From Pelagibacterium flavum (GTDB lineage: Bacteria; Pseudomonadota; Alphaproteobacteria; Rhizobiales; Devosiaceae), in contig NZ_CP107716.1 of assembly GCF_025854335.1 (NCBI RefSeq), positions 3,651,001 through 3,715,000 on the forward strand: a stretch of DNA of 64,000 nt. Reading direction: 5' to 3'. Positions 734 to 16,481 of this stretch are shown here, in pieces (positions within the stretch are counted from its first letter, which is position 1; the number at the start of each line of letters is the position of its first letter). Position numbers and translations under genes: made by a program. The notes beneath the pieces are model-generated. The model did not search any database. It worked only from the letters and a program-made list of their open reading frames with translations, and was not told the DNA's origin.

Positions 734-1206
734 GATCTTGCCTTGGCCTCTCTCACTTCCTCGACTATTGCCAGAACCTGCACGACGATGATCCCGCCCA
801 TGCCGACGGCAAGCAACGCGGCCATGATCCACTTGGGCCAGCCCAAGGCAAGAAATGTCGTGAACCGGGCCGTCGATATCTGGGCGATGGCAGCCTGAAT
901 GACCGACACCGATATGGCTATGACAAGCAAATGAGAGACAATTGAAGCTGGCGTTCTGGCTCGTCTCGGCAAAAGCTCGACAAAAAAGCCGATGCCGAAG
1001 AGCTGACCATAGAGCGCAGCGCCAACCAGCCCCAGCCACACAGTCGCAGAAAAGGCCAATATGGCCAGGTCGTGGGCGGCATAAAAGGGAACGCGCAGCA
1101 CGTTGCGCGCAATGACGTCAGCTGAGACAACGATAACAAGACAGGCGATAAACAGCGCGGGCAAGACCGAGCCTGTTAGCTCGACCACGCGTCGGATCGT
1201 TACCAT
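730..1206 (-). CDS. dctQ: TRAP transporter small permease DctQ
   Basis: This 158-residue protein has four hydrophobic segments and the length and layout of the DctQ family, the four-helix subunit that pairs with DctM. I start it at the ATG at 1206 (MVTIRRVVELTG) because the longer frame upstream is arginine-rich and runs back through the intercistronic gap and into dctP. It sits between dctP and dctM on the same strand and overlaps dctM by four bases. A stem-loop lies in the 56-base gap upstream. Confidence 0.9.
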   Translation of the reverse strand: MVTIRRVVELTGSVLPALFIACLVIVVSADVIARNVLRVPFYAAHDLAILAFSATVWLGLVGAALYGQLFGIGFFVELLPRRARTPASIVSHLLVIAISVSVIQAAIAQISTARFTTFLALGWPKWIMAALLAVGMGGIIVVQVLAIVEEVREAKARS

Positions 1207-1224
1207 TGACTCACCCCTGTGTGT

Positions 1225-1251
1225 GCGCCGCCCGGTTTGACAGGGCGGCGC
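1225..1251 (-). other. Stem-loop between dctP and dctQ
   Basis: The arms 1225-1233 (GCGCCGCCC) and 1243-1251 (GGGCGGCGC) are perfect reverse complements, nine G/C-rich pairs around a nine-base loop. There is no T-run after the stem in the direction of transcription, so it is unlikely to be a full terminator. Its position directly after the binding-protein gene fits an mRNA-protecting or attenuating hairpin, as is known for malE-malF type operons. The same layout recurs after ugpB, tctC and dppA in this window. Confidence 0.6.
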
Positions 1252-1262
1252 TGATCCTTGTC

Positions 1263-2270
1263 TTATTCGCCTGTGGCAGCAGCGCGAACCTGATCGTAAA
1301 GCCCTTCGGGCCAATCAGGAAAGCTTGTGTAAAAGCTCGCCGTCTGGTCTCTGTAAGCTTGAACGTCCGCTTCGTGGAAGGTCACGCCCTGCTCTTCAAA
1401 TTCGGCCCGAACCTCATCTTCGAGACCCTTGGACAGCGCTGTAAGGTCCTGGCCGCCTACACGGAACTCTTCCATCAAAATGGCTCGGTCCTCTTCGCTG
1501 AGAGCCTGATAGGTCTCTTCGCTCATCACCCAGCCGAGAAACAGATTGAAGTGCCCGGTCAGCGTAATGTGCTTGGCCACTTCCTGCCAGCCGCTCGCAC
1601 GCAGCCCCGTCAACGGGGCTTCTGCCGCCGACACCACACCCTGAGATAGAGCGGAATAGACTTCAGCGGCCTCGACGGTCGTTGCCAACACGTCGAGAGG
1701 TTCAAAAGTCTTGATCCAGGTTTCGACCGGCGGCACACGCATGCGCACGCCTTCAAGATCATCGGGGTGAGGATAGCCAGCATTGCCAATCATATGCCGG
1801 GGTCCATCAAACCAGTTCAGCGCTACAACGCGAATTCCTGCAGTCTGTGCAAGATCATCGTAGTAGCCCATCATGAGATCGGAAAACGCCAGTCGTTCGG
1901 CTTCCTCGGTGTTTTCAACAATAAAGGGACCTTCCACGATCGCGAGCTCCGGCACACCAAAACCGGCCAGAAAGGACGCCGAAGTGAACGTCATCACGGG
2001 CTGCCCCTGGCTGGCCTGCTCGATGGAATCGGTGGTCGAGCCAAGCTGAGCAGAAGGGAACATCTGGAACTGAACACGCCCTTCGGTGCGCTCGGTGACC
2101 CTCTCGGCAGCCTCTTCGGCCATGATGAAGGATTCGCCGGTGGGCGGATTGACAGTGGCAAGGCGGATCGTCACCTCCTGAGCGAGGGCGGGCGCGCTCA
2201 TAAGACCCAATGCCGAGGTGGCCGCAAGTAGCTTGCCCAGTGCCCGACGGCTAATCATTGACGAAATCAT
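1263..2270 (-). CDS. dctP: TRAP transporter substrate-binding protein DctP
   Basis: This is the 335-residue periplasmic solute receptor of the TRAP system. The start at 2270 (MISSMISRRALGKLL) is chosen because GGGAG lies about seven bases upstream and it begins a signal peptide with a twin arginine, ending at APALAQ near residue 31. The mature protein opens with VTIRLATVNPPTG and contains VRMRVPPVETWIKTF and the SxWxxVAKH-like stretch seen in DctP proteins. It is followed by dctQ and dctM. The ligand is unknown; proximity to the lysine/fructoselysine genes is suggestive only, because a separate regulatory region of 470 bp precedes it. Confidence 0.92.
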   Translation of the reverse strand: MISSMISRRALGKLLAATSALGLMSAPALAQEVTIRLATVNPPTGESFIMAEEAAERVTERTEGRVQFQMFPSAQLGSTTDSIEQASQGQPVMTFTSASFLAGFGVPELAIVEGPFIVENTEEAERLAFSDLMMGYYDDLAQTAGIRVVALNWFDGPRHMIGNAGYPHPDDLEGVRMRVPPVETWIKTFEPLDVLATTVEAAEVYSALSQGVVSAAEAPLTGLRASGWQEVAKHITLTGHFNLFLGWVMSEETYQALSEEDRAILMEEFRVGGQDLTALSKGLEDEVRAEFEEQGVTFHEADVQAYRDQTASFYTSFPDWPEGLYDQVRAAATGE

Positions 2271-2404
2271 CGTGTTACTCCCTTTGGCTGCGCTAGCATC
2301 ATTTCGGTTCCGGGGTCGTGCAGCATCGACCCCACCCTCTGTTTCGCTCTCCTTGAGGAGAGCTGTTTTCACCTGCGCCGCAGGATTCTCACCCAATGAA
2401 AATA

Positions 2405-2741: not shown

Positions 2742-3641
2742 CTAGTCGTTATCCGTTCTCGACAGCGAGATGATCCAGTCACGGAAAGCCTTTAGGGGAC
2801 GGTGGCTGGCATGGGCTGGCGGCCAAACGAGAAAGTAGCGCTCGCGGCTGAGCATTGGCGCGTTCAGGATGGGAACCAGATCACCCCGCTCCAGGTCGCT
2901 TTCGATCAAAAAGCGCGGCAAAAGCGCAAGGCCCAGGCCCGAACTGGCAGCCTGGGCCGCCGTTGCGAACTGATCAAACAGCATGCCGCGCAAACGCCCG
3001 GCATCGACGTTTTGTTGTGCAAACCAACGCTCCCACTGATCGGCTCGGCTCGCCAAATGGAGCAGAGGAGCCCCGAGACAATCCTGGGCGGTGTTTATCG
3101 TGTGGCGCTCCAGAAACCCAGGTGACGCAACCGGGATGACCGTTTCGGTCATCAGCTCCACGCCTTCGGTTCCCGGCCATGGGTTGTCGCCAAAATGAAT
3201 GGCCGCATCGAAAGGGTCGGCGCGAAAGTCAAATGCCTCGAGCCGCGTGGTAAGATTGATGGTCACACCAGGTTGCCGCTCCAAAAACATCGGAAGTCGC
3301 GGCGCCAGCCAGCGTGTTCCGAATGTAGGCAAAATGGCCAAATTGAGCGTCCCCCCGTACGGATTGGCGCGCAGGTTGAGCGAGGCACTGCCAATTCGTT
3401 GCAGAGCTTCGCGAATTTCGCGCGCATAGGTGGCTCCGGCCTCGGAAAGCCGGACTGTCTGCCTGTCCCGTACAAAAAGCTTGCTTCCAATCTGCTCTTC
3501 GAGCAGCCGGATCTGACGAGAGACTGCACTTTGAGAGACAGACAGTTCTTCTGCAGCAGCTGTGAAGCTTTCATGGCGTGCCGCGGCCTCGAACGCCGAG
3601 AGCAACGACATGGAGGGAAGGAAGCGACGCGGAATGGCCAT
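2742..3641 (-). CDS. LysR-family regulator, GcvA-like
   Basis: A 299-residue LysR transcription factor. The winged-helix domain begins right after the start (LLSAFEAAARHESFTAAAEELSVSQSAVSRQIRLLE) and the effector domain contains DPFDAAIHFGDNPWPG, as in the GcvA-like branch. I use the ATG at 3641 (MAIPRRFLPS), which fits the family; a longer frame to 3794 would overlap the end of ydiJ. It is the last gene behind frlD-aminotransferase-amaB-hglS-ydiJ on the same strand, 61 bases after ydiJ, so it is a natural candidate regulator of lysine catabolism. The effector is unknown. Confidence 0.88.
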   Translation of the reverse strand: MAIPRRFLPSMSLLSAFEAAARHESFTAAAEELSVSQSAVSRQIRLLEEQIGSKLFVRDRQTVRLSEAGATYAREIREALQRIGSASLNLRANPYGGTLNLAILPTFGTRWLAPRLPMFLERQPGVTINLTTRLEAFDFRADPFDAAIHFGDNPWPGTEGVELMTETVIPVASPGFLERHTINTAQDCLGAPLLHLASRADQWERWFAQQNVDAGRLRGMLFDQFATAAQAASSGLGLALLPRFLIESDLERGDLVPILNAPMLSRERYFLVWPPAHASHRPLKAFRDWIISLSRTDND

Positions 3642-3702
3642 GGGTTCACCAGAGGGGCGGAGTGGGAAAGCCCTCAAATTAACAGACCCTTGGGGGGACG
3701 CA

Positions 3703-6651
3703 TTATCCATTTTGCCGCCCCCCATAGCCACTCCCCTGCCCGGCAACGTGACAGGCCAGAACTTCAAGGGGATGGGGCACCCGCCCTTGCCCAAAGCGTT
3801 TGGTCTGACATCGGCAGGAAAAGCCCGTCGCCATGGCGCCGCCTCTTGCTATCGGATCAGCCCATGAAAGCTCAAAAATCGCGCGCGACATCTCCTTGTG
3901 TTCAGCCTCATGCCCAAACAATCCACTCATTCCGCAACAGCCGACACTGACGACATCCACCTCGATTCCGAAATGGGCAAAGATCTTCTGCCAGCGGCCA
4001 CCGGCCTTGGGATCGCTGGTTGCTTCCGTGCAATGAAGAAACAGACTGCCGCCGTCTCTGATGCGTTCGAAATTGCCATCCCCTGCCAGCTGCCGCTCAA
4101 GGAACACATCAATCGGGAGCAGGAAGTCGGCGCCATGCCTGCGGGCATCGATCGTGGTTGCCGGTTCAACGGCGACCAGGGGCCATCCTAGTGCAGCGTA
4201 CAAACGCAGAGTCCGCTGGAGATGCCGGTTTGACTTGGCGTGGGCCCGACCGAAACCGCGCACCTCGAGCGCTTTGCCGTTGGCCAGAACAGGTGCCACA
4301 ACCGGTTTGAACCCAAGTAGGCTCAACATCCTGGCAGTGGCAATCAGCGGCCCGATGTCAAAACTGGCAAGAAAGCTGTCAGGGACAATAATCACACTTC
4401 CCGACTCTGTGGGAGGGCGGGACAGATCGAGGAGCGCAATTCCTTCCTCGCGCAGTCGGCTTTCCAGAGTCCGGTCACAGAACCCTGGCAGGTCCACCAG
4501 CCCAAGAGCGGTCAGCACCCGCTTTGCCGGCCAACTGTCCAGCACGGCATTTGACGGTCGCGCGAAGCGACGGGCGGTGAGGAGCGCCGGTTCCATAAGC
4601 CTGACAACGTAGTCGCGCATCGGGCGGCGATGCCGTGCATAATAGGTCTCGAGAAACGACGCCTTCATCGTCGGAATGTCGACCTTGACCGGACAAGCCG
4701 ATGCGCAGGCACGACAGGACAGGCACGTATCAAGACTGGACTTGAGTGCCGCCTCGGCCTCGGGATCGGGTGTCCGCGCCCATGCTCTTAGAAGCGCGGC
4801 GCGACCATTTGGCGATTGCGTCTTGTCCCTGCTGACCTTGTAGGAGGGACACATCGGGTCGGCAGGATCCCAATCGTGACAGGCGCCGTTGCCATTGCAG
4901 TCAATGGCATTTTGCACCATCGGCCGACGGTGAGCGGGAATTTCGGCGTCGGTTTCGCCGCGGAAAGGCACCTCGTCGATTCGCAGCACACCAACCTCGC
5001 TGCCGGCAGGCGCTGCAAGTTTGCCCGGGTTGAGCCGGTTGCCAGGATCGAAGAGGGACTTGATACGCTGCACAACCGGGTAGAGATCTGGCCCGAAGAC
5101 CTCTTCAAGGTATTCCCCACGTACACCGCGTCCGTGCTCGCCCCAAATCAAGCCGCCATATGCGCGGGTTAATGCTTGGACGCCATCGGAAACGGTACGG
5201 ATCAACTCTCGGTCGGCCGCATCGCGCATGTCGAGCGTAGGACGAACATGCAGGCATCCCACATCAGCATGGCCGAACATGCCATAGGAAAGGCCGTGTT
5301 GATCAAGAAGTGCACGGAATTCGGCAACATAGGCGGCGAGGTTTTCAGGCGGCACCGCGGTATCCTCGACAAAGGGATAGGCTTTCCGTTTCCCTTCGAG
5401 AGCACCAAGGAGCCCAACGGACTTCGCCCGGAGTGACCACGCCGCCTTTATGGCGGCAGGATCGATTACAGAACGTGTCAAAAAGGCTGTGTCATCACCT
5501 TCAAGATGAGAAGCCAGCGTCGCCAGCTTTGCGCTGACCTCCACTGAACTGTCTCCAGCCACCTCCACAAAATTGACGGCCCCGACACGACCATCGACCT
5601 CCCCTAACAGCGATCCGAGCTCTGCCCAGACAGGGTCGTTCTGCGCCAGGCTCAAAATCTTGTCGTCAAGGATCTCTACTGCCAGCGGATCTGCCTCGAC
5701 GAGACGGGGCACATGGCCGAGGGCACTGGCAAAGCTGTGGTAGAACAGCACCATGAGCCCCTTCGATTTTGGCGTTCGCCGCAAGCGCAGGGTAATGGCT
5801 GCCGTGATCGCCAAGGTGCCTTCCGAGCCTGAAAGAATCTTGCACAAATTCAGACCGCCCTTCTCTGGGAGGGCCTCTTTGAGATTGTAGCCAGTCAGGC
5901 CGCGGTTCATCCTGGGAAAGACGTGCTGGAAATGGTGCTTTGCCGCCTCCAGCATCACCTTGACTTCGGCGGCAAGAAGCGAACCCCTGTCGTCGCGCCC
6001 AGCGACGTTGGCGGCTTGAGTCTCGTCCAAGGGCGCAATCGTTAAGGGCGTACCGTCCGCGAGAACCACGTCCATCGATGCGATATAGTCCGAGGTTCTG
6101 CCGTATTGGCGCGATCCTTTGCCAGACGCATCGGTTGCAACCATGCCCCCGATCGTTGCGCGGCTGGCCGTCGAGACGCTCGGGGGAAAGAACCAGCCAT
6201 GGGGGGCGAGAAACGCGTTGAGCTCATCAAGAACCACACCTGGTTCCACGCGCACAATTCCAGCTTCGGCATCAAACCCGATAATGGACCTGAGGTATCG
6301 CGAGGTGTCGAGAATGATCCCGTCATTGAGAGACTGCCCATTCGTGCCGGTACCTCCACCTCTGGCCGTCAGGCTCAGGGGCTCGGGCCCCGATTGATCG
6401 AGTGCGCGGACGGCAATCTCGATATCATTGGGTCGGCGTGGGAATATCGCTGCCAAGGGAGGCACCCGATAGACCGAATTGTCGATCGCCAAAACCTCTC
6501 GGGTTCCCAATCCGGTATCAATGTCGCCTGCAAAACCGCCGGCCTTGAGCGCCTTGATGAAGCGCTTGAGGCGAGCGTCTTTTGTGGGAGAGCGGGCGTG
6601 CACTCTCGCTCTCAGCTCGCTTGAGTTCGTGACAGGCCCAGTGCATCCCAT
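3703..6651 (-). CDS. ydiJ: FAD/4Fe-4S D-2-hydroxyglutarate dehydrogenase (YdiJ type)
   Basis: This 982-residue protein matches the YdiJ family throughout: an N-terminal PCMH FAD domain (TARGGGTGTNGQSLNDGIILD, ATIGGMVATDASGKGSRQYGRTSD), an FAD-oxidase C domain (YGMFGHADVGCLHVRPTLDMRD), then an iron-sulfur region with CNGNGACHDWDPADPMCP and CLSCRACASACP, and a C-terminal cysteine-rich domain (VGCCGMSGLFGHEAEH). YdiJ enzymes oxidise D-2-hydroxyglutarate to 2-oxoglutarate. The upstream neighbour hglS makes exactly that substrate, which supports the role. The ATG at 6651 lies inside the end of hglS (40-base overlap); a GTG at 6603 would remove the overlap and is a credible alternative start. Confidence 0.9.
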   Translation of the reverse strand: MGCTGPVTNSSELRARVHARSPTKDARLKRFIKALKAGGFAGDIDTGLGTREVLAIDNSVYRVPPLAAIFPRRPNDIEIAVRALDQSGPEPLSLTARGGGTGTNGQSLNDGIILDTSRYLRSIIGFDAEAGIVRVEPGVVLDELNAFLAPHGWFFPPSVSTASRATIGGMVATDASGKGSRQYGRTSDYIASMDVVLADGTPLTIAPLDETQAANVAGRDDRGSLLAAEVKVMLEAAKHHFQHVFPRMNRGLTGYNLKEALPEKGGLNLCKILSGSEGTLAITAAITLRLRRTPKSKGLMVLFYHSFASALGHVPRLVEADPLAVEILDDKILSLAQNDPVWAELGSLLGEVDGRVGAVNFVEVAGDSSVEVSAKLATLASHLEGDDTAFLTRSVIDPAAIKAAWSLRAKSVGLLGALEGKRKAYPFVEDTAVPPENLAAYVAEFRALLDQHGLSYGMFGHADVGCLHVRPTLDMRDAADRELIRTVSDGVQALTRAYGGLIWGEHGRGVRGEYLEEVFGPDLYPVVQRIKSLFDPGNRLNPGKLAAPAGSEVGVLRIDEVPFRGETDAEIPAHRRPMVQNAIDCNGNGACHDWDPADPMCPSYKVSRDKTQSPNGRAALLRAWARTPDPEAEAALKSSLDTCLSCRACASACPVKVDIPTMKASFLETYYARHRRPMRDYVVRLMEPALLTARRFARPSNAVLDSWPAKRVLTALGLVDLPGFCDRTLESRLREEGIALLDLSRPPTESGSVIIVPDSFLASFDIGPLIATARMLSLLGFKPVVAPVLANGKALEVRGFGRAHAKSNRHLQRTLRLYAALGWPLVAVEPATTIDARRHGADFLLPIDVFLERQLAGDGNFERIRDGGSLFLHCTEATSDPKAGGRWQKIFAHFGIEVDVVSVGCCGMSGLFGHEAEHKEMSRAIFELSWADPIARGGAMATGFSCRCQTKRFGQGRVPHPLEVLACHVAGQGSGYGGRQNG

Positions 6652-8012
6652 ACAGCGTCAAGCGAAGCGTCCTCAAGGGCCTGGTAGAGCGCAAATTCGT
6701 CTGCGACAGGCGCTCCCAGGGCCGCCTCAAAGCTCTGCTGGTGGGACTTTTCCAGCCGGTCCCTGGCAGAATTGTCGCCCAGATTCGACTGGAATATGCC
6801 TGCGGCCGAAACGGGGAGAAAATCTTCGTACACGATGGGATCAGTCCCCACATACCCAGAGTCAATCAGCGATTCGATATCGTGTGACAGTTCATGGCGC
6901 GACGCCGACTTGCCTTGCTCTGTCACGTAGTAGTGGAAATAGGCCAACCCTTGCGCGCGCAAGTTCTCATAAGAATCCGGCATGGGTGCAAAGACTTCAC
7001 GCAGCGCTCTCATATATTGAGCTGTGTTGGAGCCATCTGCCTTGGGCTGAGCCAGTCCGCGGGCACTGTCGAGCAACTCATCGTAGAGCCTGCGGCCCTT
7101 GGGTTTGAGCGCGACCCCACGCTGCTCGATTTCACCGAACCGCGCCGTATGCCTGCCTGGAACGCGATTGCCGTCTTTCCCAATAAAGGCAATCTGTTCC
7201 TGGAGCGCCTTGAAACTGGTCTGGCGCAGCAGGATCGGGCATTGGCGTGGCGGCGGCCCTTCGATCACGGCCTTGGGCGTGATGCCGCGTTCGGGCATCA
7301 GGCGCTGGACAGCATCGATATCGAGGGTGCGCGGCGTAAGATGATTGATATGGGGACCGCGAAAGCTCACCACGTCCGCGACCAAACGATGAGCGTCATG
7401 GAGCTCCTGATAGGTCGCTTCGGACACAGTGGCGTTCGAGTGCCAGCGGAAAGTTCCGAGAGCCTCGGAAATGAAAGCCTCGGCATCAGCCTCGTTCAGG
7501 CCGCCCTCAGATTCGGATTTGTCGATCAGAAACCGCACGTGCTGAGAAAAGATATCGCGCTCGGCAAGCGTCAACTCGGCTGCCTCGCGCAAATTCTTGT
7601 CTTCAATAAGCTCCAAACGCAAAAGCGAGGTGAAAACGCGGAACGGGCTGCGCTTGAGTGCCTCGCTCTGGGTGGGGCGAAAAGCCGTGGAATGGACGGG
7701 AATTCCCGCCACCGAGAGGTCGTAATAACCAACCGGCTCCATACCCATGACGTCAAACAGGCGCCGCATCGTGAAAAGCTCGTCCGCCTTGCCAAGCCGA
7801 ATGGCCCCGTGACGCTCTTCAGAGAGTCGATCGAGATTGTCGAGCGCTTCAAGTCGCGCTTTGAGATCTGGATCGTTGGCCAGGACATCATTGTTGACGT
7901 CGCGGACCAGATCAATGAGGTCTCCATAAAGGGGAACCTCCTTCTTGTACATCTCGGACATGGCCCGGCAAAAGCGGGCTCTGATTTCGCTTTTGGACAG
8001 AAAGTCGGTCAT
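6612..8012 (-). CDS. hglS: 2-oxoadipate dioxygenase/decarboxylase HglS (YdcJ, DUF1338)
   Basis: A 466-residue DUF1338 protein of the VOC fold. HglS of Pseudomonas putida converts 2-oxoadipate, O2 and water to D-2-hydroxyglutarate and CO2 with Fe(II). The metal triad I recall for that enzyme (His70, His226, Glu294) has clear counterparts here: His68 in EERHGAIRLG, His224 in PHINHLTPR and Glu294 in RFGEIEQRG; the substrate arginine four residues after the first histidine is also present (Arg72). Its start overlaps the stop of amaB by four bases (ATGA), and it is followed by ydiJ, which would use the product. Function by homology and context is strong. Confidence 0.93.
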   Translation of the reverse strand: MTDFLSKSEIRARFCRAMSEMYKKEVPLYGDLIDLVRDVNNDVLANDPDLKARLEALDNLDRLSEERHGAIRLGKADELFTMRRLFDVMGMEPVGYYDLSVAGIPVHSTAFRPTQSEALKRSPFRVFTSLLRLELIEDKNLREAAELTLAERDIFSQHVRFLIDKSESEGGLNEADAEAFISEALGTFRWHSNATVSEATYQELHDAHRLVADVVSFRGPHINHLTPRTLDIDAVQRLMPERGITPKAVIEGPPPRQCPILLRQTSFKALQEQIAFIGKDGNRVPGRHTARFGEIEQRGVALKPKGRRLYDELLDSARGLAQPKADGSNTAQYMRALREVFAPMPDSYENLRAQGLAYFHYYVTEQGKSASRHELSHDIESLIDSGYVGTDPIVYEDFLPVSAAGIFQSNLGDNSARDRLEKSHQQSFEAALGAPVADEFALYQALEDASLDAVWDALGLSRTQAS

Positions 8013-9514
8013 GGCATGGCCTTGATGTCGAATGTGATCCCTTGGGCGAGCGGCAGTTCGCGGGAATAGTTCACAGTGTTGGTTTGGCGGCGCATATAGG
8101 CCTTCCAGGCGTCAGATCCACTTTCGCGTCCACCTCCGGTCTCCTTTTCGCCGCCGAAGGCCCCGCCAATCTCCGCGCCAGAGGGACCGATATTAACGTT
8201 GGCGATGCCACAGTCCGATCCCACTGCAGAGAGGAATGTCTCGGTCTCGCGCACGTCGGTTGAAAAAATGCAGCTCGAGAGCCCCTGCGGCACCCCGTTC
8301 TGCAACGCGATCGCCTCATCGAGCGTCTTGTAGGTCATAACGTACAGGATAGGCGCGAAGGTTTCGGTGCAAACGATATCGGTCTGGTCGGGCATTTCAA
8401 CGATGGCCGGGTGCACGTAGGCTCCCCCCTCAACGCCGTCTGCGCTTCCACCGCCGGTGACCGTTCCACCCTGCGCCCTGGCCGCGCTGAGCGCCTCTTC
8501 CATCATCCGCGCCGCGTCCCCATCGATGAGCGGCCCCACAAGCGTCCCCGCTTCAAGCGGATTGCCGATGGGCAGGCCCTGGTAAACAGCCTTGAGGCGC
8601 TCGACAAGCGTGTCGCGAACATCTTCGTGCACGATCACCCGGCGCAGGCTCGTGCAGCGCTGGCCACACGTCCCGACGGCCGAAAACACAATGGCCCGCA
8701 CCGCGTTGTCCAGATCGGCGGACGGGGCGACGATCATGGCGTTGTTGCCGCCCAACTCCAGGATAGACTTGCCAAACCGTTCGGCCACGACCGGCCCTAC
8801 CGCGCGGCCCATGCGGGTCGAGCCGGTTGCCGAGATGATCGGAACGTCCTTTGATCGGGTCAGAACTTCGCCCACTTCGCCTGCACCCAGAGCAATCTGG
8901 AGGAGATCGGCCGGAGCATCGCCGAATTTCTCGACTGCTCGCTCGAAGAGTTTCGCCGTGGCCAGGGCACAAAGCGGCGTCTTTTCCGAGGGTTTCCAGA
9001 TAACCGGGTCGCCACAGACGATTGCGAGGCAGAAATTCCAGGCAAAGGGGGCGACGGGGAAGTTGAAGGCGGTAATGACTCCGGCAACCCCCATGGGATG
9101 CCAGGTTTCGCGCATGGCATGCCCGGGACGTTCAGAGGCGATGGTGAGACCGAACAGTTGCCGCGACTGGCCGACGGCGAGGTCGCAGATGTCGATCATC
9201 TCCTGGACCTCACCGAGACCCTCTTGTAGGATTTTACCGCATTCGAGCGTTACGAGCGCTCCAAGTTCAGACTTGGCGGCGCGCAATTCTTCCCCGAAGA
9301 GCCGGATCAACTCGCCGCGTCTTGGCGCGGGCACCCGACGCCAGGCGTCGAACGTTGCCTTGGCGCGAGCGATCATTGCTTCGACGTCGGACGGCGTGTG
9401 GGTCTTGATCTCGGCGATCATGGCGCCGTCGACAGGCGAGAAGACCTTGAGATCGCCGCCGCTGAGTTCGTCTTGGGTCAGACCGGCGTTGGATAAAGTG
9501 TCATTGTGGGCCAT
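8009..9514 (-). CDS. amaB: ALDH7-type L-2-aminoadipate 6-semialdehyde dehydrogenase
   Basis: A 501-residue aldehyde dehydrogenase of the antiquitin (ALDH7) family, which oxidises aminoadipate semialdehyde/piperideine-6-carboxylate to 2-aminoadipate with NAD. Catalytic residues are visible: Asn151 (TAFNFPVAPF), Glu253 (ILELGGNN) and Cys287 (GTCGQRCTSLRR). The C-terminal stretch GSDAWKAYMRRQTNTVNYS followed by LPLAQGI is diagnostic of ALDH7 and not of general ALDHs. It lies between the aminotransferase (20-base gap) and hglS (ATGA overlap), as expected for the saccharopine-independent lysine route. Confidence 0.92.
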   Translation of the reverse strand: MAHNDTLSNAGLTQDELSGGDLKVFSPVDGAMIAEIKTHTPSDVEAMIARAKATFDAWRRVPAPRRGELIRLFGEELRAAKSELGALVTLECGKILQEGLGEVQEMIDICDLAVGQSRQLFGLTIASERPGHAMRETWHPMGVAGVITAFNFPVAPFAWNFCLAIVCGDPVIWKPSEKTPLCALATAKLFERAVEKFGDAPADLLQIALGAGEVGEVLTRSKDVPIISATGSTRMGRAVGPVVAERFGKSILELGGNNAMIVAPSADLDNAVRAIVFSAVGTCGQRCTSLRRVIVHEDVRDTLVERLKAVYQGLPIGNPLEAGTLVGPLIDGDAARMMEEALSAARAQGGTVTGGGSADGVEGGAYVHPAIVEMPDQTDIVCTETFAPILYVMTYKTLDEAIALQNGVPQGLSSCIFSTDVRETETFLSAVGSDCGIANVNIGPSGAEIGGAFGGEKETGGGRESGSDAWKAYMRRQTNTVNYSRELPLAQGITFDIKAMP

Positions 9515-9534
9515 GGGCTAATGCAGTTCCTGGT

Positions 9535-10773
9535 TCACGTGAGGGAGGAGAGTGCGGCGCTGGCGGCCGCGATGCGTTCGAGCGCCTGCTCGAGCGCCGA
9601 TTGGGCATAGGCATAAGACAGTCTAAAATGTCCCGGTGCCCCGAAAGCCACTCCGGGCACGACAGCAACGCCTGCCCGATCAAGGAAATACTCGCAAAGT
9701 TCGGTGTCCGTGGTAATCAGCCTGCCGCCGGGCGCCCTGCGTCCGAGGAGCCCCGTGCAGTCTGGAAAGGCGTAGAAGGCGCCTCGCGGCCTGGAACAAA
9801 CCAAGCCATCAATGGCATTGAGCCCAGCCACCACCAAATCCCGCCGGCGTTCAAAATCGGCACGACGTTCCTTCAGCACGGCGATTGGACCCTCCAAGGC
9901 TCCAATCGCCGCTGCTTGGGAAATAGAGGATGGCGCAGACGTTGCCTGCCCCTGCACCGCTGCCATTGCACCAATCAATACCTCTGGACCAATACCGTAA
10001 CCGAGCCGCCATCCGGTCATGGCATACGCTTTGGAAACGCCGTTCACCACAAGGGTTCGCTCGGCGAGTTCAGGCAGAGCTTCCAATGCCGAGACAAAGG
10101 AAAAGTCATCATAGACAAGATGCTCATATATCTCGTCCGACATCAGGCCCACATGCCGCTGCCGCTCGAAAACCGGCAGCAGGGCGCGCAGCTGATCGTG
10201 ATCGTATGCCCCGCCTGAGGGGTTGGACGGGGAATTGAGCAACACCCACTTCGTACGCGGGGTGATCGCCTGCTCCAGCGCTTGCGGGGATACAACAAAA
10301 CCTTCTCTGGCGCTCGTCGGTATCGTTACAGGCACACCTTCACACATCGAAACCATGTCGACATAGCTTGTCCAGTAGGGCGCCGGGATCACCACTTCGT
10401 CGCCCTCATCGAGCGTTGCCATAAAGGCATTGAACAAGACCTGTTTGGCCCCGGCCGATGCGATGATGTTTTTGGGGCCGATGCCAATGCCCTTGTTTCG
10501 GTAGTTCGCCACAATGGCAGTCTTAAGCGCCGCGGTTCCCGTATTGGCGGTATATCGCGTCTCGCCGCGCTCCATTGCTGCGCGCGCTGCGTCCAGAACG
10601 AAATCGGGAGTGCCGAAATCGGGCTCGCCCGTTCCAAGCGAGATCACATCCTCGCCAGCTGCCTTGCGCGCGGCGGCGGTCTCACTCAGGCGCACGATCA
10701 GAGAGACCTCGATGGAATTTACCCGGTGGGCCAACTTGAGATGGTCACCAAGCGAGGGTTTTGTCACAGCCAT
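9535..10773 (-). CDS. Class I PLP aminotransferase, probable 2-aminoadipate aminotransferase
   Basis: A 412-residue fold-type I aminotransferase of the AspC-like class. The PLP lysine is Lys248 in NGVSKAYAMTGWRLGYG; Asn184 (SPSNPSGG), Asp213 and Tyr216 (SDEIYEHLVYD) are the usual cofactor contacts. Position between frlD and amaB-hglS implies it deaminates 2-aminoadipate to 2-oxoadipate, the substrate of HglS. The family is broad (aspartate, prephenate, aromatic, aminoadipate), so the substrate is inferred from context. It could also work on another lysine-derived amine; class I enzymes do not normally remove the epsilon-amino group of lysine. Confidence 0.85.
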   Translation of the reverse strand: MAVTKPSLGDHLKLAHRVNSIEVSLIVRLSETAAARKAAGEDVISLGTGEPDFGTPDFVLDAARAAMERGETRYTANTGTAALKTAIVANYRNKGIGIGPKNIIASAGAKQVLFNAFMATLDEGDEVVIPAPYWTSYVDMVSMCEGVPVTIPTSAREGFVVSPQALEQAITPRTKWVLLNSPSNPSGGAYDHDQLRALLPVFERQRHVGLMSDEIYEHLVYDDFSFVSALEALPELAERTLVVNGVSKAYAMTGWRLGYGIGPEVLIGAMAAVQGQATSAPSSISQAAAIGALEGPIAVLKERRADFERRRDLVVAGLNAIDGLVCSRPRGAFYAFPDCTGLLGRRAPGGRLITTDTELCEYFLDRAGVAVVPGVAFGAPGHFRLSYAYAQSALEQALERIAAASAALSSLT

Positions 10774-10886
10774 TATTCACTCTGGTTTGAAAGTCTCGCA
10801 CCCAAGGTCCTACACATCCTCGCGAAGCCCGGGAAACGCCCAATGGTGCTGAGGTCATGCCAAAAGCTCATGAGCGGGCGGCGCCA

Positions 10887-11732
10887 TCAAACACCAAGGC
10901 CCTTTAGAACCGGCACGTCGGCGCAAATTTCAATCGGGGTGCCATACCCTACGGCACCGTAGTATCGACACGTGTCGGCCGCCGCCTGCGCCGCTGACGC
11001 CAAAATTTCATCTGCCCCCTCACCTTTGAGCAAGCCAAACAGTGTCCTGGCAGTAAAGGTATCCCCCGCTCCCAGCGTGTCGACAACTTGAGTGGAAACT
11101 GCTGCCACTGAGTGAACCCGGCGTCCATCCGAGAGGATCGCTCCGGCCTTGCCACGGGTGACCAGCGCCCAGTTGGCTCCCGCATCAAGCATGCGTTGCT
11201 GGAGGGCCAGGGCCTCTCTCTCAGCTATGTCACCGGCCGAAGCGGCAGCGAGGTAGCAGAGTGGGGCAACAGCCTCGACGTGCTCGGCTTCGTACCTGGT
11301 GGAAAAGTCGTAGGACAGCCGCGTCCGTCCAGCCAGCTTGGCCAGATGATCATCGAGTCCACTGGAGCGACCGATATGGACGGCGTCATAGCCAGAAGCG
11401 AACTCGATATCGCTCTGGGTCGGCTCAAACATCGAGACGCCGAGGTCAAAGGTGAGAAAGACCCTGTCGCCCTTCTCGTGGCCGACGACGCAATAGGCCG
11501 TCATGCCTTGATCGAGCACCTGCAAATGGGAGACATCGACCCCTTCTGATTCAAGCGCTGCGCAGATATGGCGCCCTGCAGGATCGTCAGCAACGCGACC
11601 GATATAGGCCGATAGCCCGCCGAACCGGCGGATGAAGACAGCGGCATTTAGTGTATTTCCGCCAGGATACATCATCCCGTTGGCGACATAGCAATCCACC
11701 ACGTTGTCGCCCATTGCTGCGATTCTGACCAT
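10887..11732 (-). CDS. frlD: Fructoselysine 6-kinase-like PfkB kinase
   Basis: A 281-residue PfkB/ribokinase-family sugar kinase. It begins IAAMGDNVVDCYVANGMMYPGGNTLNAAV, the pattern of E. coli FrlD (GDNxVDxY and GGNxxNxAV), and ends with the anion-hole/catalytic motif DTLGAGDTFTA (catalytic base Asp224). FrlD phosphorylates the C6 hydroxyl of the sugar moiety of fructoselysine, giving the FrlB substrate. Partners frlB (divergent, 175 bases between starts) and frlC are both present, which makes this call firm. It heads the minus-strand series leading to the lysine genes; 113 bases separate it from the aminotransferase. Confidence 0.9.
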   Translation of the reverse strand: MVRIAAMGDNVVDCYVANGMMYPGGNTLNAAVFIRRFGGLSAYIGRVADDPAGRHICAALESEGVDVSHLQVLDQGMTAYCVVGHEKGDRVFLTFDLGVSMFEPTQSDIEFASGYDAVHIGRSSGLDDHLAKLAGRTRLSYDFSTRYEAEHVEAVAPLCYLAAASAGDIAEREALALQQRMLDAGANWALVTRGKAGAILSDGRRVHSVAAVSTQVVDTLGAGDTFTARTLFGLLKGEGADEILASAAQAAADTCRYYGAVGYGTPIEICADVPVLKGLGV

Positions 11733-11769
11733 CTGACCCTTCTGAAGCGAATTTTCGTGTTGACTCTGT

Positions 11770-11785
11770 GTGAGAACGTTCGCAC
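11770..11785. promoter_or_regulatory. Palindromic operator in the frlD/frlB divergent promoter
   Basis: GTGAGAACGTTCGCAC: the arms GTG-n-GAAC and GTTC-n-CAC are perfect reverse complements around a central CG. A palindrome with this centre is the usual shape of LacI-family operators. The core TGnGAACGTTCnCA is repeated upstream of frlC at 13914-13927. It sits 38 bp upstream of frlD and 123 bp upstream of frlB. Confidence 0.6.
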
Positions 11786-11907
11786 TTTATCAGGACAGTT
11801 GTCAACGCGGCACGCTGAACTTCTGCGCGACGCACATTTTTCAACCCGCCCTGGCTCCAAGCGCCAGACCGTCCCCCCATTTGGACCTGCCAATGCAAGA
11901 GGCCTTT

Positions 11908-12909
11908 ATGAAAACCGAACTCAACCCCGATATCTCAAAAGCTCTGAGCGCCATAAGGGGTCGCGAGATCAGGAACGTCTTTCTCGTCGCCTGTGGCGGA
12001 TCCCTTTCAATCATGCACCCGGGCAAGTACTTTCTCGACCGCCATTCCAAGACACTGAACTCTGACGTTTACAACGCCGACGAGTTCATCGCGCGCAATC
12101 CCCTCAAGCTTGACGAAAACGCCCTGGTCATCCTTTGCTCTCAGACCGGCACCACAAAAGAAACTGCCGCCGCAGCCGAGTTCGCGCGCTCAAGGGGCGC
12201 TGCCACGATAGCCATGACACTGGACTCGGACTCCCCGCTCGGCCGGACCGCCGAACATGTTCTCAACTATCAGGCGTTCTACACGACCGGCATTCCCATC
12301 GACGCTGCCGAGTCCAATTATGGCGTGCTCTACATGCTGCTGGCCGGTCTGGTGAACCAGACCGACGGAGTCGATATCATACCTTCACTCCTGTCGAGCC
12401 TGAGCCATCTTCAGCCGGCCATCGACAAGGCCCATGAGGTCTTTGCTCCCATGTTCGATGACTATGCACCCCGGCTCGCCAAGAAAGACGTCATCTATAC
12501 GCTTGCCAGCGGCGCCAACTACGGCGCAGCCTACTCCTTCTCGATCTGTGTGTTGATGGAGATGCAGTGGATCAATTCTCAGGCCATTCACGCCAACGAA
12601 TATTTCCATGGCCCGTTCGAAGTCACCGACGAGGACGCAAGCTTCATCGTCATGGTCGGTCTTGATGAGACCCGCCGCATGGAGGAAAGAGCAAGAGACT
12701 TCGCACTCCGGTTTGGTTCGGAAAAGAACGTCATGGTCCTCGATGCAAAAAAGCTCGACCTCAGCGGCATTGACGAAGCCTTCCGCGGCTATCTTGTTCC
12801 ACTGGTGTTCTTCGACACGTTGTGGCGCTTTGCCTATAGAATTGCTGATCTGCGCAACCAGCCCATGCTGGAGGGCCGGCGCTATATGAAAAAGATCTCC
12901 GACTACTGA
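11908..12909 (+). CDS. frlB: Fructoselysine-6-phosphate deglycase-like SIS protein
   Basis: A 333-residue protein with two SIS sugar-phosphate isomerase domains, like E. coli FrlB (about 340). The first SIS domain shows FLVACGGSLSIMHPGKY and CSQTGTTKETAAAAEFAR; the second contains HANEYFHGPFEVTDED, equivalent to the E. coli FrlB active-site segment with its glutamate and histidine. FrlB splits fructoselysine 6-phosphate into glucose 6-phosphate and lysine. The ATG at 11908 is preferred because AGAGG lies five bases upstream; an in-frame ATG at 11893 is possible. It is transcribed divergently from frlD. Confidence 0.9.
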   Translation: MKTELNPDISKALSAIRGREIRNVFLVACGGSLSIMHPGKYFLDRHSKTLNSDVYNADEFIARNPLKLDENALVILCSQTGTTKETAAAAEFARSRGAATIAMTLDSDSPLGRTAEHVLNYQAFYTTGIPIDAAESNYGVLYMLLAGLVNQTDGVDIIPSLLSSLSHLQPAIDKAHEVFAPMFDDYAPRLAKKDVIYTLASGANYGAAYSFSICVLMEMQWINSQAIHANEYFHGPFEVTDEDASFIVMVGLDETRRMEERARDFALRFGSEKNVMVLDAKKLDLSGIDEAFRGYLVPLVFFDTLWRFAYRIADLRNQPMLEGRRYMKKISDY

Positions 12910-12949
12910 TCACAGTTTCTGACCCGCCAGGCAGGGAAAAGCCGCATTT

Positions 12950-12979
12950 GCGCCGGTATCGGAAAACCGATTCCGGCGC
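12950..12979. terminator. Interrupted hairpin between convergent frlB and frlC
   Basis: GCGCCGG (12950-12956) pairs with CCGGCGC (12973-12979), and inside it TCGG (12959-12962) pairs with CCGA (12967-12970) around AAAA. It lies 41 bases after the frlB stop and 23 bases beyond the frlC stop, so it may end transcription from both sides; the sequence also resembles REP-like extragenic palindromes of Hyphomicrobiales. No clear T-run follows. Confidence 0.5.
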
Positions 12980-13001
12980 GTTCTATTTGCTCGGGCCCTG
13001 T

Positions 13002-13844
13002 CTATGCCAAGCGCCCGATGGCTGCAGAGAGCTTTTCCACGCTCTGCTTGAGAGCGGGCTTTGGATCAAGATAATATCTCGAATTGGTCAACTCGAGCGA
13101 AAGGGCCCCCTGGTAGCCAATGGTTTGGAGCTCGGCAAGGTAGAGATCGAGGTCGAGCATGCCATCTCCCCAAGCCAGATGACTGCCCGCGACATCTGCA
13201 TCCGTCATGTGCATGTGAGCGAAACCGGATTTCAGCTCGGTCGCGTAATCGGAAACACTTTCTTCCGACAGAACCGCTGCCGAGGTATCCATCATTGATC
13301 GGATTGCCGGTGAGCCGACGACAGCGAGCAGCCGGGCAAGATCGCGTGCCGTGGTTGCCACATTGCTCCATGCCGGTGGCAGGCACTCGAGATAAAGGGT
13401 TATGCCAAGCTCTTCTGCGCGTTTTGAAATCGTTCCAAGCGAATTCACACACCGATCCCACGCCAGTGCCGCCGGCTCATTGGCATATCCCGAGCCTGGT
13501 GTAACCAGCAGCGCAGGACTTGCCATCTCCGCACACATCTCCAGGCATTGCTCAAAATAGCGAACGCTGCGATTTCTAAGCTTTTCTTGAGGTGATGCGA
13601 GATTGATCGGGTAGACGCATTGTTCCGGTGTGAAACAGGCGATCTTTAGGTTGCGCGTGCGAATCTGGTTTCTCAATTCGCGTGCATCACTCAGTGTCCG
13701 GTCGCCCACATAAAAGTGTGGCGCGGCGCCCCAGATCTCGACCTGGGTAAGACCGAGTTCGGCGGCATCGTCAAGGAATGCCTCGAGCGGATAGCGCTGG
13801 TAGTGGAAGTTCATCGCGCAGATATTGTCGAACGACAAAGGCAC
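13002..13844 (-). CDS. frlC: Fructoselysine 3-epimerase-like TIM-barrel isomerase
   Basis: A 280-residue sugar phosphate isomerase/epimerase of the AP-endonuclease-2 fold, aligned by eye with E. coli FrlC (HQRLPIEHAFRDASELG against YQRYPLEAFLDDAAELG; EIWGGRPHAF against EIWGAAPHFYV). FrlC interconverts fructoselysine and psicoselysine. Metal ligands expected for the fold are Glu153 (YLECLPP), Asp186 (MMDTSAA), His212 (MHMTDAD) and Glu251 (SLELTN). I start at the GTG at 13844, which has AGGAG eight bases upstream and gives the family length; the internal ATG at 13814 is less likely. An IS21-type element ends 142 bases upstream. Confidence 0.87.
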   Translation of the reverse strand: MPLSFDNICAMNFHYQRYPLEAFLDDAAELGLTQVEIWGAAPHFYVGDRTLSDARELRNQIRTRNLKIACFTPEQCVYPINLASPQEKLRNRSVRYFEQCLEMCAEMASPALLVTPGSGYANEPAALAWDRCVNSLGTISKRAEELGITLYLECLPPAWSNVATTARDLARLLAVVGSPAIRSMMDTSAAVLSEESVSDYATELKSGFAHMHMTDADVAGSHLAWGDGMLDLDLYLAELQTIGYQGALSLELTNSRYYLDPKPALKQSVEKLSAAIGRLA

Positions 13845-13913
13845 GGGCCTGCTCCTATTTCTGATCCATCGATGCCGCGTTCGGGCGAAAGAACCGGACA
13901 GTCGGCTCCATAC

Positions 13914-13927
13914 TGTGAACGTTCTCA
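13914..13927. promoter_or_regulatory. Palindromic operator upstream of frlC
   Basis: TGTGAACGTTCTCA shares the core TGnGAACGTTCnCA with the site between frlD and frlB (11770-11785). It lies 70 bp upstream of the frlC start and 59 bp from the IS end, so frlC keeps its own control site despite the insertion. Confidence 0.55.
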
Positions 13928-13992
13928 TTCCTTTATACAACGGGCAAGATGGGTCGGCCGATTTTGTCACTGAACCGCCAAGAGGTGTCAAC

Positions 13993-14108: not shown

Positions 14109-14876
14109 TCAGGACGTGCGGCTGGCTTTGCGTGCCCGGCTTTGGGCGAGGCGATAGCTGTCACCATTCATCTCGAGGATGCTGACGTGATGGGTCAGGC
14201 GGTCGAGGAGCGCGCCGGTGAGGCGCTCGGACCCGAAGGTCTCGGTCCATTCGTCGAAAGGCAGATTGCTGGTGATCAGGGTGGAGCCGCGCTCGTAACG
14301 CTGCGAGATCAACTCGAACAGCAACTCGGCCCCGGTCTTGGACAGCGGCACGAAGCCCAGTTCGTCGATGATGAGCAGCTTGTAGCCAGCCATCTGCTTC
14401 TGGAAGCGCAGAAGGCGACGTTCGTCGCGCGCCTCCATCATCTCGCTGACCAGGGCGGCTGCGGTGGTAAAGCCGACGGACAATCCCCTCTGGCAGGCTG
14501 CCAGGCCAAGACCGATCGCAACATGGGTCTTGCCCGTGCCACTGGGTCCGAGCGCGATAACATTCTCGCGCCTTTCGATCCATTCGCAGCGCGCCAGTTC
14601 CAGCACCAGCATCTTGTTGAGCTTGGGGATGGCGGCAAACTCGAAGCTGTCGAGGCTTTTGGCGGCCGGGAACCGGGCGGCCTTGATGCGACGCTCGACC
14701 ATGCGCCGTTCCCGGTCGATCAGTTCGAGTTCGACAAGTCGGGCAAGATAGCGGACATGATCCACGTCCTCGAGCGCGCATTGGCGGGCAAGCTTGTGGT
14801 GCTCGCGCAGGAAGGTCGGCAGCTTGAGCGCTTTGAGGTGGCTGGCAAGCAGGAGTTCGGGAGCATCGCTGCTCAT
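14109..14876 (-). CDS. istB: IS21-family helper ATPase IstB
   Basis: A 255-residue AAA+ ATPase that assists the IstA transposase in target choice. It shows Walker A GPSGTGKTHVA, Walker B LLIIDELGFVPL and the IstB signature ITSNLPFDEWTETFGSERLTGALLDRLTHH. The ATG at 14876 overlaps the istA stop (ATGA), the normal IS21 arrangement. It is intact. Confidence 0.95.
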   Translation of the reverse strand: MSSDAPELLLASHLKALKLPTFLREHHKLARQCALEDVDHVRYLARLVELELIDRERRMVERRIKAARFPAAKSLDSFEFAAIPKLNKMLVLELARCEWIERRENVIALGPSGTGKTHVAIGLGLAACQRGLSVGFTTAAALVSEMMEARDERRLLRFQKQMAGYKLLIIDELGFVPLSKTGAELLFELISQRYERGSTLITSNLPFDEWTETFGSERLTGALLDRLTHHVSILEMNGDSYRLAQSRARKASRTS

Positions 14877-16366
14877 GCCAGTTCCTCCTCGCGGTCCAGC
14901 AGACCCATATAGGCCTTGGCCGAGGTCGTCTCGACACTGGCTCTGGGCAGATAGGGGTAGATGGCAAGGTCGAGCCTGGGTGGCCGGCGTTCGGCCCGGC
15001 ACAGGACGAGATGCTTGATGGCATCGAAGCTTATGGCGCCCAGGTGCAGCGCCTGCTTTATGGCCGCATGCAGGTCGGCCAGATCGAAGCTTTCCAGAAG
15101 ACGCAACACTTGCACATAGGCGCGCCGGCCCTGCTTGCCCATCCGCGCTTCCATCAGGCGACGCAGTGTGGCGAACGCCTCGGGAAGTTCCCAGCCCTGG
15201 AGCGGGGCCGCCTGGTCGAGCGCATTGATCTTGTGCTCGATCAGCGGCAGGTAATGCAGTGGGTCAAAGACGATGTCTTCGCGCCCATAACTGCGCGGAT
15301 GACGGGCGATGGTCTCCCCGCCGCAGCCGATCACCACCTCATCGACATAGCCACGGATCCAGGCGTCCTGATGGCCATAGGCAACAGGGACGGAATAGTC
15401 GTTGGTTCTGTAGCGCACCAGCGCCTGGGAGGAGACCCGGCCGCTGGCCTGGTCGCAGGCCTCGAAGGGCGATGCCGGCAGCGGCCGCATCGCCGCCAGA
15501 TCGCGTTGCAGCCGTTCGCCGATCGTCTCGCTCTCCCCGCGTAGCCGATCGCCCTGGCGCCTGCGGCACTGCTCCTCGAGCCACAGGTTGAACGCGTCCC
15601 AGGTTGCAAATCGGGGGATCGGCACCATGAAGTTGCGGCGGGCATAGCCCACAAGTCCTTCAACACTGCCCTTGTCATTGCCCTTGCCGGGGCGGCCATA
15701 ACGGTCCCGGATCAGGTAGTGGGACAAAAACCCGCTGAACAGCGTTGCCCGCTTGCGCGTGCCGTCAGGAAGAATTTTTGCCACCAGGCAGCGGTCGTTG
15801 TCGTAGACGATCGATTGCGGCACTGCGCCCAGAAAGGCGAACGCGTGGATATGGCCGTCCACCCATGCTTCAGCCACAGCTGCCGGATAAGCCCGGACAT
15901 AGCAGGCGTCGCTGTGGGGCAGATCGAGCACGAAAAAGTGCGCCTTCTGTTCCACCCCGCCGATGATAACCACAGCCTCCCCGAAATCGGCCTGTCCATG
16001 TCCGGCAGGATGGGCCAGCGGCACAAATACTTCCTGACCGCGCCGGTCCCGCTCGCGCATGTAGTCCTTGATGATCGTGTAGCCGCCGGCAAACCCATGT
16101 TCGTCACGAAGGCGATCAAAAACGCGTTTGGCCGTATGACGCTGCTTGCGCGGGACCGCCCGGTCCTCGTCAAGCCACCGATCAATGATCGCGATGAACG
16201 CGTCCAGCTTCGGGCGTCGCACCGGCGCCTGCCGCCGATAGCCCGGCGGAACAGAATACGCCATCATCTTGCGAACCGTATCGCGCGAGATGCCGAAATG
16301 CCTGGCTGCTTCGCGCTGGCTCATGCCGCCATCGCAAGCCAGACGAACCTTCAAATATAAGTCCAC
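14873..16366 (-). CDS. istA: IS21-family transposase IstA
   Basis: A transposase of about 497 residues. An N-terminal helix-turn-helix (MSQREAARHFGISRDTVRKMM) is followed by an rve DDE integrase core: first Asp in GHGQADFGEAVV, second in QSIVYDNDRCL, and Glu in GNDKGSVEGLVGYARR, then the Mu C-like C-terminal region. No ATG lies at the family position; I start at the GTG at 16366 (VDLYLKVRLACDGG), consistent with other IstA proteins that begin (M)YTVDLYL. A longer ATG frame to 16447 runs into the terminal repeats. Confidence 0.92.
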   Translation of the reverse strand: MDLYLKVRLACDGGMSQREAARHFGISRDTVRKMMAYSVPPGYRRQAPVRRPKLDAFIAIIDRWLDEDRAVPRKQRHTAKRVFDRLRDEHGFAGGYTIIKDYMRERDRRGQEVFVPLAHPAGHGQADFGEAVVIIGGVEQKAHFFVLDLPHSDACYVRAYPAAVAEAWVDGHIHAFAFLGAVPQSIVYDNDRCLVAKILPDGTRKRATLFSGFLSHYLIRDRYGRPGKGNDKGSVEGLVGYARRNFMVPIPRFATWDAFNLWLEEQCRRRQGDRLRGESETIGERLQRDLAAMRPLPASPFEACDQASGRVSSQALVRYRTNDYSVPVAYGHQDAWIRGYVDEVVIGCGGETIARHPRSYGREDIVFDPLHYLPLIEHKINALDQAAPLQGWELPEAFATLRRLMEARMGKQGRRAYVQVLRLLESFDLADLHAAIKQALHLGAISFDAIKHLVLCRAERRPPRLDLAIYPYLPRASVETTSAKAYMGLLDREEELA

Positions 16367-16414
16367 GGTGTAGATCCCTCGTCCCTCCCGCACAAATTGC
16401 AGAAGGAAAATAGG

Positions 16415-16481
16415 TGGACGACTTTTAAGCCGCCCGCAGCAGGACAATCCAGCCGCTACCGTGGACTAATTTTGCACCGCC
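16415..16481 (-). repeat. IS21 right-end multiple terminal repeats R1 and R2
   Basis: On the minus strand R1 is 16481-16462 and R2 is 16434-16415. Both fit GGCGG-N3-AAAA-N3-G-N-CCA with the R2 form GGCGGCTTAAAAGTCGTCCA, matching L1 closely. They lie between the outer tip and the istA start, so they may overlap the istA promoter. Confidence 0.75.

Follow-up and report, generated by a model that had tools for sequence, protein, structure and literature searches.

The window, that is the whole stretch of 64,000 nucleotides analysed here, derives from a Pelagibacterium genome (Devosiaceae) consisting of one contig of 3.93 Mb, and near its left edge genes of fructosamine (frl) type adjoin genes of lysine and pipecolate degradation. 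A TRAP transporter that is a candidate importer (1–2396, minus strand; dctM, which runs past the window edge, dctQ, and dctP at 1263–2396) is followed on the same strand by a LysR regulator of the GcvA type accompanying the lysine genes (2742–3641), a YdiJ-like D-2-hydroxyglutarate dehydrogenase (FAD, Fe-S; 3703–6651), the 2-oxoadipate dioxygenase/decarboxylase HglS (6612–8012), the L-piperidine-6-carboxylate/aminoadipate semialdehyde dehydrogenase ALDH7 (8009–9514), a class I aminotransferase (9535–10773) and an FrlD-like PfkB kinase (fructosamine 6-kinase; 10887–11732). An FrlB-like SIS-domain fructosamine-6-phosphate deglycase lies on the plus strand (about 11893–12909) and an FrlC-like epimerase on the minus strand (13002–13844, start at 13814 or 13844); the start codons of these gene calls are our choice. 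Between the divergent frlD and frlB, directly 3' of TTGACT, there is a LacI-type operator-like motif, GTGAGAACGTTCGCAC (11770–11785), and a second, weaker copy with three mismatches to the exact 16-mer is found upstream of frlC (13913–13928, minus strand). An IS21-type istA/istB pair (14109–16447) flanks frlC; at this place the same-species genome UBA3584 (L014) carries, as judged by eye, genes for a glyoxalase-like protein, a permease, a flavodoxin-like protein and a LysR regulator instead. The coordinates and families of frlD, frlB and frlC beside the aminotransferase, ALDH7, HglS and YdiJ genes agree with the preliminary description, and so does its statement that frlD and the four lysine genes, to which the lysR gene can be added, are co-directional with short gaps or overlaps: frlD and the aminotransferase gene are separated by 113 nt, the latter and ALDH7 by 20 nt, ALDH7 and hglS overlap by 4 nt, and hglS and ydiJ overlap if ydiJ starts at its first ATG. 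The GC content at third codon positions (GC3) of the island is 0.657 compared to 0.743 in the remaining window, which weakly hints at acquisition, but other genomes of the genus vary widely in GC3.

The three frl proteins are best matched by the fructoselysine models, yet they score far under the cut-offs (FrlB 111 of 430 bits, FrlC 163 of 305, FrlD 167 of 247), so that by the NCBIfam equivalog cut-offs they would not be classed as enzymes of the E. coli-type fructoselysine (epsilon) pathway. The solved chain nearest to FrlB is PDB 3eua (319 bits; next best 197), presumably a B. subtilis protein, which itself reaches 146 of 430 bits on the fructoselysine FrlB model. FrlB is closer to this Bacillus-type deglycase than to other solved chains, and a PfkB kinase and a SIS deglycase are encoded together as in frl-type pathways. 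For the B. subtilis enzymes FrlD and FrlB, a specificity for alpha-glycated amino acids is stated in the portion of the source used here (PMC12632257). Since the nearest solved relative of FrlB is the Bacillus-type deglycase, fructoselysine, which the preliminary description had named as the substrate, is reduced to one candidate.

Within the lysine gene set, HglS and ALDH7 exceed the cut-offs of their models (NF049974, 736 bits, cut-off 550; NF050084, 803 bits, cut-off 730), while the YdiJ-like protein is the best match of its NCBIfam model yet stays under the cut-off (NF049975, 1010 vs 1350 bits). HglS keeps the histidine and the arginine of the HGAIR stretch, identical to 6w1g, where they are numbered H70 and R74; arginine 74 of P. 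putida HglS sets the substrate specificity, as stated in the consulted part of PMC7286885. The nearest solved chain of the aminotransferase is 6f35 (aspartate aminotransferase B), and it would act on 2-aminoadipate. Directly left of the window (left-flank locus L015, in which the window position equals the L015 position minus 10001) there are an L-pipecolate-oxidase-like gene, amaA (405 bits, cut-off 600, next family 108), a gene for a piperideine-2-carboxylate reductase-like protein, P2CR (Pyr2C/P2C reductase, ornithine-cyclodeaminase family; 305 bits, cut-off 322), a lacI gene and the remainder of the TRAP transporter. Candidates are therewith present for AmaA, ALDH7, aminotransferase, HglS and YdiJ, with AmaA and YdiJ under their cut-offs. 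AmaA, P2CR and LacI, encoded outside the window, suggest that the amino-acid half would follow the pipecolate/aminoadipate/HglS route, and the position of P2CR 3' of frlB together with AmaA points to lysine, D-lysine or pipecolate as a putative amino half. A role of P2CR as lysine cyclodeaminase was considered and judged unlikely (68 bits, vs 203 for mu-crystallin-type and 124 for Pyr2C-reductase chains). In P. lacus the block of TRAP, P2CR, AmaA and LacI genes is located on the frlB contig, about 22 kb off, and is 67–87% identical. Among the nine of 13 Pelagibacterium genomes searched (E <= 1e-60), LacI was restricted to the three frl-bearing and AmaA to the five hglS-bearing genomes, so that LacI tracks frl, and AmaA tracks the lysine genes.

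Several further copies and neighbors of these genes were observed. A protein of 171–177 amino acids is encoded beside P2CR in both Pelagibacterium species (L015 8848–9381; L145 9593–10108). A partial copy of the LacI region (1121 nt, 99.7% identity; L144 7323–8443, G000:C1 about 322 kb) adjoins, by eye, an IS3-type transposase gene and looks like a recent partial duplication. A second, N-terminally truncated hglS (residues 149–457 only, 84.5% identity to that of genome G124; L005 9309–10565, G000:C1 about 2497–2499 kb) adjoins an ABC transporter 98% identical to one beside the lysine operon of G124, and it looks like a remnant of the other lysine locus of the genus. A second ALDH7 (L017 8952–10445, G000:C1 826951–828444) is 78% identical to that of the window, and the ALDH7 of the P. 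lacus cluster is closer to this second copy (87%) than to the window copy (79%).

A scan of named genomes with an alignment of six FrlB sequences yielded 97 relatives, of which the best 80 were retained, and neighbors were counted in a flank of up to 10 kb a side, less at contig ends, using bit-score thresholds chosen by us. In these best 80 of 97 loci, frlB is accompanied by FrlD (77 loci), LacI (69), P2CR (56), dctP (25), FrlC (24), LysR (12), AmaA (11; 40–48% identity), ALDH7 (7), HglS (6), the aminotransferase (5) and YdiJ (3). HglS or ALDH7 occurs near frlB in eight of the 80 loci, in five families according to the tree labels and in several gene orders; two of the eight are Pelagibacterium loci, and the others belong to Paracoccus rhizosphaerae, an uncultured Rhodobacteraceae bacterium, Aureimonas psammosilenae, Aquibium, Aquamicrobium aerolatum and Pararhizobium mangrovi. 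At least one of HglS, ALDH7, AmaA and YdiJ is encoded in 16 loci, L104 being counted solely by a 38% YdiJ-like match, and all four are absent from the up to 10 kb a side of the remaining 64. The arrangement of the frl genes recurs as well: frlD and frlB are divergent within 400 nt in 55 of the 80 loci; in 39, P2CR is encoded at most 1.2 kb 3' of frlB and on its strand; and dctP, whose homologues in the 25 loci are 64–79% identical outside their own species, follows 3' of frlD on the same strand in ten (132–272 nt between matches). In the window, frlD and dctP are separated by the lysine operon, all on one strand. A gene for a GlpD-like FAD enzyme is present in 21 frl loci and one for an OYE/FadH-like flavoenzyme in 18, both proteins scoring under the model cut-offs (e.g., L081 8364–9887, L087 5337–7415). 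On the FrlB tree the HglS/ALDH7 label requires seven changes, at least six of them forced by well-supported branches, and it is not more clustered than in shuffles (302 of 500 as low), so the linkage has been gained or lost many times.

FrlB was found in four and HglS in nine of 136 genomes of the family, and both together in three, all of them Pelagibacterium (two species); among the 13 Pelagibacterium genomes frlB is present in three and hglS in five. The lysine operon occurs without frl in genomes G124 and G125, with ydiJ, and in G049, without ydiJ. Across 397 genomes of the order HglS was detected in 24 and FrlB in 23, a close FrlB type (at least 63% identity) being present in six, three of which encode HglS, in one case unlinked (about 110 kb); HglS was found in none of the 17 genomes with an FrlB type of 38–40% identity. 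As these groups differ in taxonomy, the co-occurrence is suggestive and the physical linkage is the stronger fact. In a hand-picked set of 41 of the 80 named loci, which contains all four linked HglS cases, HglS is encoded in 21 genomes by 23 copies, of which four lie within 10 kb of frlB; the expectation from genome sizes is about 0.1 for these 41 genomes and about 0.2 for all 78. The linkage of frl and hglS in relatives, to which the preliminary description had looked for support, was thus encountered: hglS is found no more than 10 kb from frlB in another Pelagibacterium species, in Paracoccus rhizosphaerae and in Aureimonas, Pararhizobium and Aquamicrobium, and both genes are also linked on plasmids of Sulfitobacter and Paracoccus.

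FrlB (E <= 1e-90) is encoded in 19 plasmid records and HglS in 76, and four of the 19 FrlB records were viewed gene by gene. The mobilizable plasmid NZ_CP034817.1 of Paracoccus sp. Arc7-R13 (33,154 bp) bears both gene sets, namely frlB, frlD, frlC (which spans the record start), hglS, ALDH7, aminotransferase, a 39% ydiJ, amaA, P2CR, lacI and TRAP genes. On pDSM14862_b of Sulfitobacter indolifex the genes form one run, hglS-ALDH7-aminotransferase-amaA-lysR-TRAP-frlD followed by the divergent frlB-P2CR-lacI, and ydiJ and frlC are absent from the stretch viewed. A plasmid of Sulfitobacter sp. D7 carries TRAP-FrlD-FrlB-P2CR-LacI, with HglS absent from the stretch viewed, and on the Microvirga VF16 plasmid AmaA is present and HglS absent from the stretch viewed. 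As far as genome sequences can tell, the coupling has good support as an association of genes that recurs, and because it is seen in other families the pairing exceeds chance.

The regulation of the two gene sets was examined by means of the putative operator. In 70 of the 80 loci the motif GTGAGAACGTTCGCAC, with up to three mismatches, occurs in the 400 nt upstream of frlB, compared to 0 of 80 shuffled sequences and five out of no more than 400 pieces drawn at random from these loci, some of them possibly containing true sites. Searched across the genome, a degenerate form matches perfectly at one place, between frlD and frlB, and with one mismatch upstream of frlC and at 2766 kb; with two mismatches allowed there are 29 genome matches vs 15 for a reversed control pattern. 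The motif was not found near the lysine, TRAP, AmaA or LacI genes in the genome of the window, and in the 80 loci no start of an AmaA, ALDH7, HglS or aminotransferase gene has it within 450 nt; of the further sites in these loci, many lie by LacI, FrlD or FrlC starts, and 22 have no query gene in their vicinity. One LacI operator serving both gene sets was therefore rejected, and the shared induction expected in the preliminary description finds no counterpart in an operator that occurs at frlD/frlB and frlC only. A simple scan of the 113-nt gap between frlD and the aminotransferase gene gave neither a terminator-like nor a promoter-like site on the strand of these genes, so that read-through from frlD is possible; the scan also marked a weak terminator-like site of five pairs inside the end of frlD, and it says little, as its terminators were no more numerous than those in shuffles (10 vs 11.4). 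Apart from such possible read-through, the regulation of the frl and the lysine genes looks separate. A second palindrome (CATATGACGTCATAAT-like) was seen in the frlD-frlB region of L079, L089, L097, L115, L117 and L123, all of which carry AmaA or lysine genes; the palindrome is missing from other AmaA loci (L111, L133).

The preliminary description had lysine itself degraded to 2-oxoglutarate, and of this route the later part is supported by HglS and ALDH7 above their cut-offs, with pipecolate predicted to enter via AmaA, while the locus was found to encode no clear enzyme that would turn lysine into aminoadipate semialdehyde or into P2C. About 180 kb away (G000:C1 about 3841.7–3842.9 kb) there is a lysine-dehydrogenase-like gene, which has saccharopine-dehydrogenase domains and adjoins, by eye, an Lrp-type gene; its product has no NCBIfam match at 1e-10, and its nearest chain is 3abi, which we take to have lysine dehydrogenase activity. 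The aminotransferase could act on lysine too. A flavin amine oxidase encoded near the Sulfitobacter cluster was considered as the enzyme from lysine to P2C, but the genome of the window gave one weak match only (E 9.8e-4). Neighbors annotated as flavin amine oxidase, cytochrome c and RidA are seen at the Sulfitobacter indolifex cluster (L142 21034–23637), and in Pseudotabrizicola (L104 18857–20991) the gene that comes after the aminotransferase homologue is of the 2-oxoacid dehydrogenase E1 type, and its product might provide another route for 2-oxoadipate. Pipecolate is described as an intermediate of lysine degradation in the alphaproteobacterium Phaeobacter inhibens in the section of PMC5653290 relied on here.

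From the gene families, their order, the operator-like motif and the recurrence of the pairing we infer the following scheme. An Amadori compound would probably be taken up by the TRAP transporter, FrlC may interconvert epimers, FrlD would phosphorylate the fructosamine at C6, and FrlB would split the product into glucose 6-phosphate and a free amino acid. AmaA would convert pipecolate into P6C, which is in equilibrium with aminoadipate semialdehyde, ALDH7 would yield 2-aminoadipate and the aminotransferase 2-oxoadipate, from which HglS would form D-2-hydroxyglutarate and YdiJ 2-oxoglutarate. If L-lysine is the product, its entry might be through the lysine-dehydrogenase-like enzyme encoded far from the locus, or through P2C, formed by transamination and then acted on by P2CR. 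The LacI repressor, by binding to the motif, would govern frlD, frlB and frlC; the lysine genes would have their own LysR and, in Pelagibacterium, maybe also read-through from frlD. The pairing recurs in other families and on a small plasmid, which suggests a pathway consuming both halves; of the earlier proposal that both halves of the Amadori product are used, the recurrent linkage of the gene sets (eight of 80 loci, two plasmids) has held up, and the metabolic flow is a prediction. We put at roughly 55% the probability that the locus forms a catabolic unit whose substrate is a glycated (Amadori) lysine or lysine-derived amino acid, both halves of which are used. A more specific form, an undescribed alphaproteobacterial and partly plasmid-borne pathway leading from an Amadori amino acid into the pipecolate-HglS route, with alpha-glycated lysine or glycated pipecolate rather than epsilon-fructoselysine as substrate and P2CR as a working part, can be put forward tentatively, with the odds against it.

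Other explanations have to be weighed against this catabolic unit. The Amadori module, for compounds of plant litter, and the pipecolate/lysine module may travel together as their foods co-occur in one niche, with no metabolite passing from FrlB to HglS. Separate regulators and operators, the two transporters (TRAP and ABC) in Paracoccus, and the finding of each module also alone and of both on plasmids would suit such an island, which we nevertheless regard as rather unlikely, given that P2CR stands directly 3' of frlB in 39 of the 80 loci, that the lysine operon of the window is placed between frlD and dctP, and that the linkage persists through different gene orders. That frl landed beside a lysine operon in Pelagibacterium by chance would fit the presence of frlB in three of 13 genomes of the genus and the lysine operons without frl in two others, but four of 23 HglS copies within 10 kb of frlB in the 41 hand-picked genomes, where about 0.1 is expected, and two plasmids with both sets speak against it; given this recurrence across families and on two plasmids, chance adjacency is very improbable and was rejected.

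The substrate could also be the Amadori compound of pipecolate, a secondary amine as in fructosyl-proline. FrlB would then release pipecolate directly to AmaA and the locus would be without a gap, with a candidate gene for every step to 2-oxoglutarate within about 18 kb; the Bacillus-type affinity of FrlB and the presence of AmaA within 10 kb in 11 of the 80 loci are in line with this. However, P2CR would be left without a task, AmaA was not seen in 69 of the 80 loci (up to 10 kb a side), and no paper on such a compound in bacteria was among the matches of the literature search, so this substrate appears improbable. Under the preferred reading of a catabolic unit, a recurrent, partly plasmid-borne cluster with an amino-acid route would show how such bacteria use the whole molecule, the amino-acid half would strongly hint at what a large clade of FrlB proteins really acts on, and the cluster could serve as a ready-made gene set with which to degrade glycated lysine.

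In decaying plant matter and in heated food, much carbon and nitrogen is held in a large pool of Amadori products, and the best-known bacterial systems for them end at a sugar phosphate and an amino acid. The fructoselysine pathway of E. coli ends at lysine and glucose 6-phosphate; its frlABCDR genes have the functions and models of FrlB, FrlC and FrlD in common with Pelagibacterium, whose proteins score far under the cut-offs. The D-lysine/pipecolate route of P. putida includes AmaA, ALDH7 (AmaB), LysR and YdiJ, and to our knowledge no frl genes are joined to it. The HglS step is common to this route and the one proposed here (chemistry as covered in PMC7286885). The operon frlBONMD-frlP of B. 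subtilis shares the kinase FrlD and the deglycase FrlB with Pelagibacterium but has an ABC importer and FrlR, and the consulted part of PMC12632257 describes no lysine or pipecolate genes with the operon. Amadori catabolism in alphaproteobacteria is also represented by the deoxyfructosyl-glutamine (soc) genes of Rhizobiaceae, as mentioned in the same source (PMC12632257). Of six loci of the 38–40% FrlB type that were viewed, which might correspond to these genes, four lie, by eye, beside an amino-acid-type ABC transporter and a lacI gene. Among the top matches of a literature search that covered few subscription journals, no title or abstract joined frl to HglS or pipecolate genes. The preliminary description knew of no described system coupling the two sets, but a coupling of fructoselysine and lysine degradation is reported for Intestinimonas AF211, which grows on fructoselysine and in whose model both halves are used, leading to butyrate; there the locus tags place the frl cluster (AF_00949-00955) close to a lysine operon (AF_00976-00982), and frl proteins were up to 25-fold higher on lysine, as given in the part of the study used (PMC4697335). 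Judged from that part, Intestinimonas AF211 resembles the arrangement proposed here in the proximity of frl and lysine genes and the use of both halves, and it differs in that it ferments lysine to butyrate with other lysine enzymes encoded 20 locus tags apart, whereas in Pelagibacterium the genes of the pipecolate/HglS route directly adjoin frl. While the coupling of fructoselysine to lysine degradation is itself already known from Intestinimonas, the direct adjoining of frl and the pipecolate/HglS route is new as far as the literature search reached.
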